The position numbers and the translations under genes were made by a program. From a virus, in the IMG/VR virus record IMGVR_UViG_3300005096_000137, positions 62,001-126,000 of that record: a stretch of 64,000 nt of DNA; one strand, given 5' to 3'. Of the stretch, positions 11,543-11,667 are shown piece by piece (positions within the stretch are counted from its first letter, which is position 1; every line of letters begins with the position of its first letter). The notes under the pieces are model-generated. The model was not told the DNA's origin, searched no databases, and saw nothing but the letters and a program-made list of their open reading frames with translations.

Positions 11543-11667
11543 GGAGGGGTAGCTCAGTTGGTAGAGCGCCAGTAGCATAAAAACAGTTGTGACAAACTTG
11601 CTATTAAGCCGAACATAGCTGATTATCTCGGAACTGGATGTCGCGGGTTCGAGACCCGCCCCCTCCG
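11543..11667 (+). ncRNA. tRNA-like Y RNA with Ro60 helix in place of the anticodon arm
   Basis: A cloverleaf with acceptor GGAGGGG/CCCCTCC, D-stem GCTC/GAGC with GG in its loop, stem CCAGT/ACTGG and T-arm GCGGG-TTCGAGA-CCCGC. The anticodon loop is replaced by 59 nt. This insert holds CCGAA (11609), then CATAGCTG, then ATTATCTC. The 8-nt CATAGCTG pairs over its full length (two G-U) with CAGTTGTG (11584-11591), which is followed 4 nt later by ACTTG. These are the parts of the Y RNA Ro60-binding helix, but the strand order is swapped compared with animal Y RNAs. CTT/AAG close an inner hairpin. U33 is absent and CCA is not encoded, so translation use is unlikely. Confidence 0.72.

Follow-up and report, generated by a model that had tools for sequence, protein, structure and literature searches.

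Predicted tRNA-ended, circularly permuted Y RNAs beside a phage Ro60 gene and their relatives in bacteria

Described relatives and the phage locus

The bacterial Y RNA YrlA (RF02553; PDB 6CU1) superposes on tRNA only with a circular permutation (PMC11472068), and its two ends pair to hold Ro60 (PMC8394870). In the Rfam consensus, as displayed on a phage YrlA (L021), the Ro60-stem 5' strand is followed by the T arm, an acceptor hairpin, the D arm and the Ro60-stem 3' strand. Here we describe two RNAs, copy 1 (at 11543) and copy 2 (at 13991), encoded upstream of a full-length Ro60 gene in the window, a 64,000-nucleotide stretch (positions 62,001 to 126,000) of the 148-kb virus record IMGVR_UViG_3300005096_000137. 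They are probably Y RNAs that mature as a tRNA does and are gripped by Ro60 where a tRNA has its anticodon. With YrlA they share the arms, the CCGA..GUUAUC/ACUUG motif, the bulged C, a Ro60 helix in the anticodon's place and a gene beside Ro60. In YrlA, however, the ends meet in the Ro60 stem and a hairpin closes the acceptor, whereas the ends of the window RNAs form the acceptor and their Ro60 stem is a capped hairpin. Cutting a YrlA circle at the acceptor loop and capping the Ro60 stem gives the RNA of copies 1 and 2. The preliminary description of this DNA had proposed such a swapped connection, and comparison with RF02553 agrees, since the same arms are found in circularly shifted order. 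One refinement is needed: YrlA already is a permuted version of tRNA, so it is the tRNA-ended form that restores the order of tRNA, and by their arm order the two RNAs are circular permutants of each other. RF02553 itself gave only a partial match on the window (18.2 bits, against a gathering cut-off of 69).

Three other described systems bear comparison. Bacterial tRNA (RF00005) has the same acceptor, D arm, T arm and anticodon-type stem, and the frames at 11543 and 11760 pass its gathering score, but the window RNAs have no 7-nt anticodon loop, no U33 and no anticodon. Like tmRNA, tRNA-ended Y RNAs have tRNA ends without an anticodon arm, and a cyanobacterial subset even has G3.U70, A73 and CCA; they differ in having a Ro60 helix and no reading frame, and in the window copies G3.U70 and CCA are absent as well. 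A tmRNA test of the window copies gave no tag reading frame and no RF00023 or ARAGORN tmRNA call. The permuted tRNA genes of algae and archaea are another natural case of circular permutation in a tRNA-like RNA; in them the permutation lies in the gene and the RNA is joined again, while here the mature RNA is predicted to be in tRNA order and YrlA is the permuted form.

Structure, recurrence and linkage to Ro60

Copy 1 scored 52.6 bits with the Rfam tRNA model (gathering cut-off 29), with an insert of 59 nt where the model has 7. Its acceptor (GGAGGGG/CCCCTCC, 7/7), anticodon-type (CCAGT/ACTGG, 5/5) and T-arm (GCGGG/CCCGC, 5/5) stems are complete. The insert reads CAGUUGUG..ACUUG-CUAUUAAG-CCGA..CAUAGCUG-AUUAUC, and the predicted Ro60 arm is built from the helix CAGUUGUG/CAUAGCUG, followed by an internal loop, then by UU/GA, where a C is bulged, and finally by the cap GCU-AUUA-AGC. 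Along the RNA the order is acceptor 5' strand, D arm, Ro60 3' strand, Ro60 5' strand, T arm and acceptor 3' strand, with the 7-bp acceptor at the ends. Copy 2 has its own acceptor and T-arm stem (CTAGG/CCTAG), and its Ro60 arm holds a long hairpin with a cap (CCTTCGGGG). Two matches to the ordered motif ACTTG-N(5-35)-CCGA-N9-RTTATC lie in the window, at 11596 and 14038; shuffled sequences gave a mean of 0.01, and none held two. These results, together with the covariance model and the covariation given below, which includes the acceptor stem, uphold the earlier placement of tRNA ends outside, the Ro60 helix inside and the ACTTG strand first in both RNAs.

Related RNAs were sought with the pattern ACTTG-CCGA-RTTAYC-GGTTCRA, which gave 25 viral and 87 genome stretches that were then sorted by a pairing test. 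True tRNA-ended forms were found in phages (L018, L039/L045 and L043/L053) and in bacteria (Calothrix, Aliterella, Spirirestis, a Kofleriaceae metagenome-assembled genome and Chloroflexota metagenome-assembled genomes). The remaining stretches proved to be tandem YrlA or chance matches, and the actinophage Y RNAs L009, L011 and L013-L015 read by eye as classical YrlA. A first scan with a D-loop pattern had returned mostly chance matches in coding sequence or tandem YrlA junctions, with L018 the only true member.

A covariance model, R1, was built from eight of the phage and bacterial sequences and none from the window, whose copies were mis-aligned by MAFFT; the window thus served as an independent test. 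R1 found both copies (Table 1) and no further permuted copy on the phage. In the eight-sequence alignment 91% of cells were paired, and 18 of the 30 pairs had two-sided changes, including all seven acceptor pairs (7/7). An alignment of 51 members, which leans towards the model because it was fitted to R1, had 95% of cells paired and two-sided changes in 25/30 pairs, against 18.2 in shuffles; the observed covariation score was reached by 0/500 shuffles, and both the cap stem and the Ro60 helix covary. Tandem tRNA-ended copies were found by R1 beside Ro60 in cyanobacteria, Chloroflexota, Myxococcota and Armatimonadota.

Linkage to Ro60 was counted in 146 cyanobacterial and 151 Chloroflexota genomes (297 in total), these being the only two phyla evenly covered. 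Long R1 matches were present in 14/146 cyanobacteria and a strong Ro60 in 18/146; all 14 fell within the 18 (Fisher p=3e-16), with the match and Ro60 on one contig and within a few kb in every case. For Chloroflexota the counts were 6/151 and 8/151, and again all six fell within the eight. Ro60 was thus on the same contig in 20/20 R1-positive genomes, and no R1-positive genome (0 of the 297) was without it. RF02553 gave no match above its cut-off in the cyanobacteria (0/146), and its sub-cut-off matches partly spanned junctions between units. In cyanobacteria, and in some Chloroflexota, Ro60 seems to have the tRNA-ended Y RNA as its usual partner.

The Ro60 protein of the window is about 40% identical to actinophage Ro proteins, and aligns end to end with Xenopus Ro60 (1YVP, E=1e-109) and with Deinococcus radiodurans Rsr. 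The equivalents of H187, K170 and R174 are conserved in it; H187S in mouse Ro60 abolishes Y RNA binding (PMC11277228). A search for related loci using this protein alone found no match among viral contigs. At the level of sequence and covariation, the structure, the swapped-strand Ro60 motif, the linkage to Ro60 and the recurrence in several phyla and phages are established.

Several variants were noted among the relatives. In two of them, from Nostocaceae (L104:2758-2865 and L136:1837-1944), the D arm seems to be missing; the acceptor, the T arm and the Ro60 motif in permuted order are present. Chloroflexota members L177-L181 are short (107-108 nt), and both strands of their Ro60 core are altered together, ACTTC/GTGA replacing ACTTG/CCGA; co-evolution with a divergent Ro60 is possible.

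Placement of the ends and alternative readings

In the proposed arrangement the ends of the molecule have moved: the tRNA-mimic body would follow its natural order, its ends joined in a closed acceptor, and an internal capped hairpin would supply the Ro60 helix. Judging from this architecture, a longer transcript would be cut at the acceptor ends by RNase P and the tRNA 3'-end enzymes, and Ro60 would grip the helix where the anticodon arm would otherwise be. The tRNA-like elbow and acceptor could then tether or gate further partners, such as PNPase in D. radiodurans. For the phage, such a particle might adjust RNA decay or quality control, or might offer a tRNA decoy that lacks an anticodon. 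A further possibility is that the tRNA-like frames mark cleavage sites that free a classical Y RNA, since only 1 nt separates the end of copy 1 at 11667 from the Y RNA at 11669.

That last observation leads to a reading in which the RNAs do bind Ro60 but their tRNA ends are mere processing punctuation for neighbouring classical Y RNAs. Classical Y RNAs begin 1-5 nt past two of the tRNA-like ends in the window, and the frame at 11760 has retained its arms and lost its Ro60 motif. Most of the bacterial arrays found, however, consist of tRNA-ended units, each with a conserved Ro60 motif, and we consider punctuation alone unlikely.

It is very unlikely that these are ordinary YrlA tandem arrays in which the tRNA-ended register is an artefact read across unit junctions. 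Cross-junction matches do occur: R1 gives weaker ones in true YrlA arrays (L021, L024 and L040), and RF02553 gives sub-threshold ones that span junctions of tRNA-ended units. As these RNAs are often arranged in tandem, each acceptor strand was tested for pairing inside its own unit and with the unit that follows. Pairing was perfect in 59/63 own units, a count that is partly by construction since R1 selects for acceptor pairing, and at 5/27 junctions. Copy 1 pairs 7/7 in its own register against 5/7 with the next tRNA frame, and L067 pairs 7 against 2 and 7 against 5. In L067 and in stand-alone copies the register is independent of the selection by R1, and for copy 2, L018, L164, L167 and L177-L181 no junction could arise, since none of them has a tRNA-ended unit next to it. 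Gaps of 9-228 nt stand where a short hairpin loop would be expected, and the neighbouring Y RNAs in L018 close on themselves. CCA is encoded directly after the acceptor in 18/51 relatives, where a few percent would be expected by chance.

Besides the selection built into R1, four results weigh against copies 1 and 2 being Y RNAs matured as tRNA and held by Ro60. Neither window copy has an encoded CCA; the earlier remark that CCA, U33 and an anticodon are missing is thus correct for the window, though for CCA not for all relatives. The minimum-free-energy fold of copy 2 alone is not significant (z=+0.4). A scan for promoters and terminators found no strong promoter and no strong terminator. Finally, the phage records L039 and L053 (251 kb) have tRNA-ended RNAs and no TROVE match; these phages, L043 among them, may use the Ro60 of the host, or the records may be incomplete. 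In L053/L043 and L039 the tRNA-ended Y RNAs sit inside phage tRNA arrays.

There is very little probability that the insert is an intron of tRNA genes, removed to give a working tRNA. Cyanobacterial tRNA-Gly(TCC) and tRNA-Lys(CTT) genes with an insert at this same place have been published by Mohanta et al. as carrying group I introns of 22-49 nt (PMC5733544). In these genes, from Nostoc PCC 7107 and Gloeocapsa PCC 73106, the insert motifs follow the order of the Ro60 core; they were presented as introns in decoding tRNAs, and we read the genes as encoding tRNA-ended Y RNAs. The motif string reported there (TTxxC, CTTGxCT, AAGxC, GAAGAAT, GG) corresponds in order to the Ro60 strand, the cap and CCGAAGAAT, and it matched 6/51 Ro60-linked members against 0/102,000 shuffles. 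In L156 and L165, for example, the letters TCC stand at positions 36-38, directly before the reported intron start at 39. From the motif string and the position we infer that the published genes encode tRNA-ended Y RNAs. Both the reported lengths and the 59 nt of copy 1 are too short for group I, and the copy 1 insert had no Rfam intron match. The cap stem and Ro60 helix covary, and neither U33 nor any constant anticodon remains. It is unlikely that splicing yields a working anticodon loop: the insert falls well below the size of a group I intron, contains the Ro60 motif and occurs where the Ro60 gene does. That these are degenerate phage tRNAs with a fortuitous insert and no Ro60 function, a reading to which the tRNA array of the phage and the lost motif at 11760 lend something, is hardly credible given a motif expectation of 0.01 per window, the clustering beside Ro60 and the covariation across phyla.

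If copies 1 and 2 and their relatives are Y RNAs with tRNA ends, these free acceptor ends can be tested for links to RNase P, CCA addition and aminoacylation. A subset of the cyanobacterial members (in L157, L158, L159, L160, L161 and L069) has an 8-bp acceptor with G1-C72, U2-A71 and G3.U70, followed by A73 and an encoded CCA, which together make up the alanine identity set that tmRNA shares; the G.U pair and CCA co-occur (Fisher p=2e-4, among sequences related to each other). It is a speculative and rather improbable extension that Ro60 particles enter the tRNA life cycle: they would be cleaved by RNase P, acquire CCA and, in Nostocales with this acceptor, be charged with alanine like tmRNA. 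If so, the RNA-quality machine of Ro60 would be tied to aminoacylation or to the rescue of translation. YrlA and the tRNA-ended RNA also form a natural pair of circular permutants, with one predicted shape and different ends, through which the role of Y RNA ends can be probed.

Gene finders for tRNA miss or mis-call tRNA-ended Y RNAs, and many may therefore be unannotated, while some have apparently been taken for tRNAs with introns. ARAGORN made no tRNA call at 11543, and copy 2 was detected neither by Rfam (below the RF00005 cut-off) nor by ARAGORN. Inside the tRNA-ended Y RNA at L135:4792-4916 ARAGORN calls a tRNA-Trp. In Gordonia phage Mareelih an annotated 'tRNA-Leu(gag)' (L013:8661-8749) overlaps an apparent classical YrlA unit and is probably a mis-call.

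The window locus and its other features

Three tRNA frames and three Y RNAs of classical orientation lie upstream of the Ro60 gene (Table 1); the frame at 11760-11878 and the classical Y RNAs at about 11669, 11883 and 12038 were absent from the preliminary description. The Ro60 5'-strand motif occurs eight times on the forward and 0 times on the reverse strand of the whole 148-kb record, and 5/8 cluster upstream of Ro60. The phage also carries a tRNA array. A module of tRNA frame plus Y RNA has been duplicated, 11543 and 11669 giving 11760 and 11883. By its sequence the frame at 11760 is a decayed copy of copy 1, its insert having kept GACAAACT and lost CCGA/GTTATC. Matches to RF01656, the Rfam model for nematode Y-like RNA, and to Plastid-ycf2 in the window were both below cut-off and were set aside.

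Table 1. Features of the Y RNA and Ro60 locus in window coordinates.
Feature	Position	Strand	Details	Evidence
tRNA-ended, circularly permuted Y RNA, copy 1 (predicted)	11543..11667	+		RF00005 52.6 bits; R1 83.8 bits, E=4e-18; fold z=-3.3
Copy 1 acceptor 5' strand GGAGGGG	11543..11549	+	partner 11660-11666; discriminator G 11667, no CCA	sequence, pairing 7/7
Copy 1 D arm GCTC-AGTTGGTA-GAGC	11552..11567	+		sequence; tRNA model alignment
Copy 1 anticodon-type stem 5' strand CCAGT	11569..11573	+	partner ACTGG 11633-11637; no anticodon loop	tRNA model alignment
Copy 1 predicted Ro60-binding helix in anticodon-arm place	11584..11627	+	CAGTTGTG (11584-11591)/CATAGCTG (11614-11621)	homologous helices 4, 5 covary in relatives
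Copy 1 Ro60-arm elements	ACTTG 11596-11600; CCGA 11609-11612; ATTATC 11622-11627	+	cap GCT-ATTA-AGC	
Copy 1 T arm GCGGG-TTCGAGA-CCCGC	11643..11659	+		sequence; RF00005
Classical-orientation Y RNA (ends = Ro60 stem)	11669..11734	+		pattern chance ~0; RF01656 22 bits, sub-cut-off; z=-2.5
tRNA frame with decayed Ro60 motif	11760..11878	+		RF00005 47.4 bits; R1 54.7 bits
Classical-orientation Y RNA, duplicate of 11669	11883..11948	+	ACCTG replacing ACTTG	
Classical-orientation Y RNA	12038..12109	+	outer stem TTGGGC/GCCCAA	
tRNA-ended, circularly permuted Y RNA, copy 2 (predicted)	13991..14136	+		R1 50.1 bits, E=4e-10
Copy 2 elements	ACTTG 14038-14042; CCGA 14077-14080; GTTATC 14090-14095; T arm 14113-14129	+	acceptor GCGACTG/CAGTCGT	
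Ro60/Rsr protein (TROVE + vWA), 524 aa	14166..15740	+		Pfam PF05731 1.6e-35, PF25045 2.5e-51

Immediately upstream of copy 2, at 13858-13990, lie two near-identical direct repeats (gagcaacggaatcagaaccgaataatgactctaaactgaatcgacaaatctga) that matched no RNA family. The same gene cluster encodes an HD_4 domain protein at 12897-13463 (Pfam 1.5e-13), possibly ppGpp-hydrolase-like. In Gordonia phage GMA2, a Pistol ribozyme match (L011:8446-8502; 56.8 bits, cut-off 34.5) lies between tRNA genes downstream of its Ro60.
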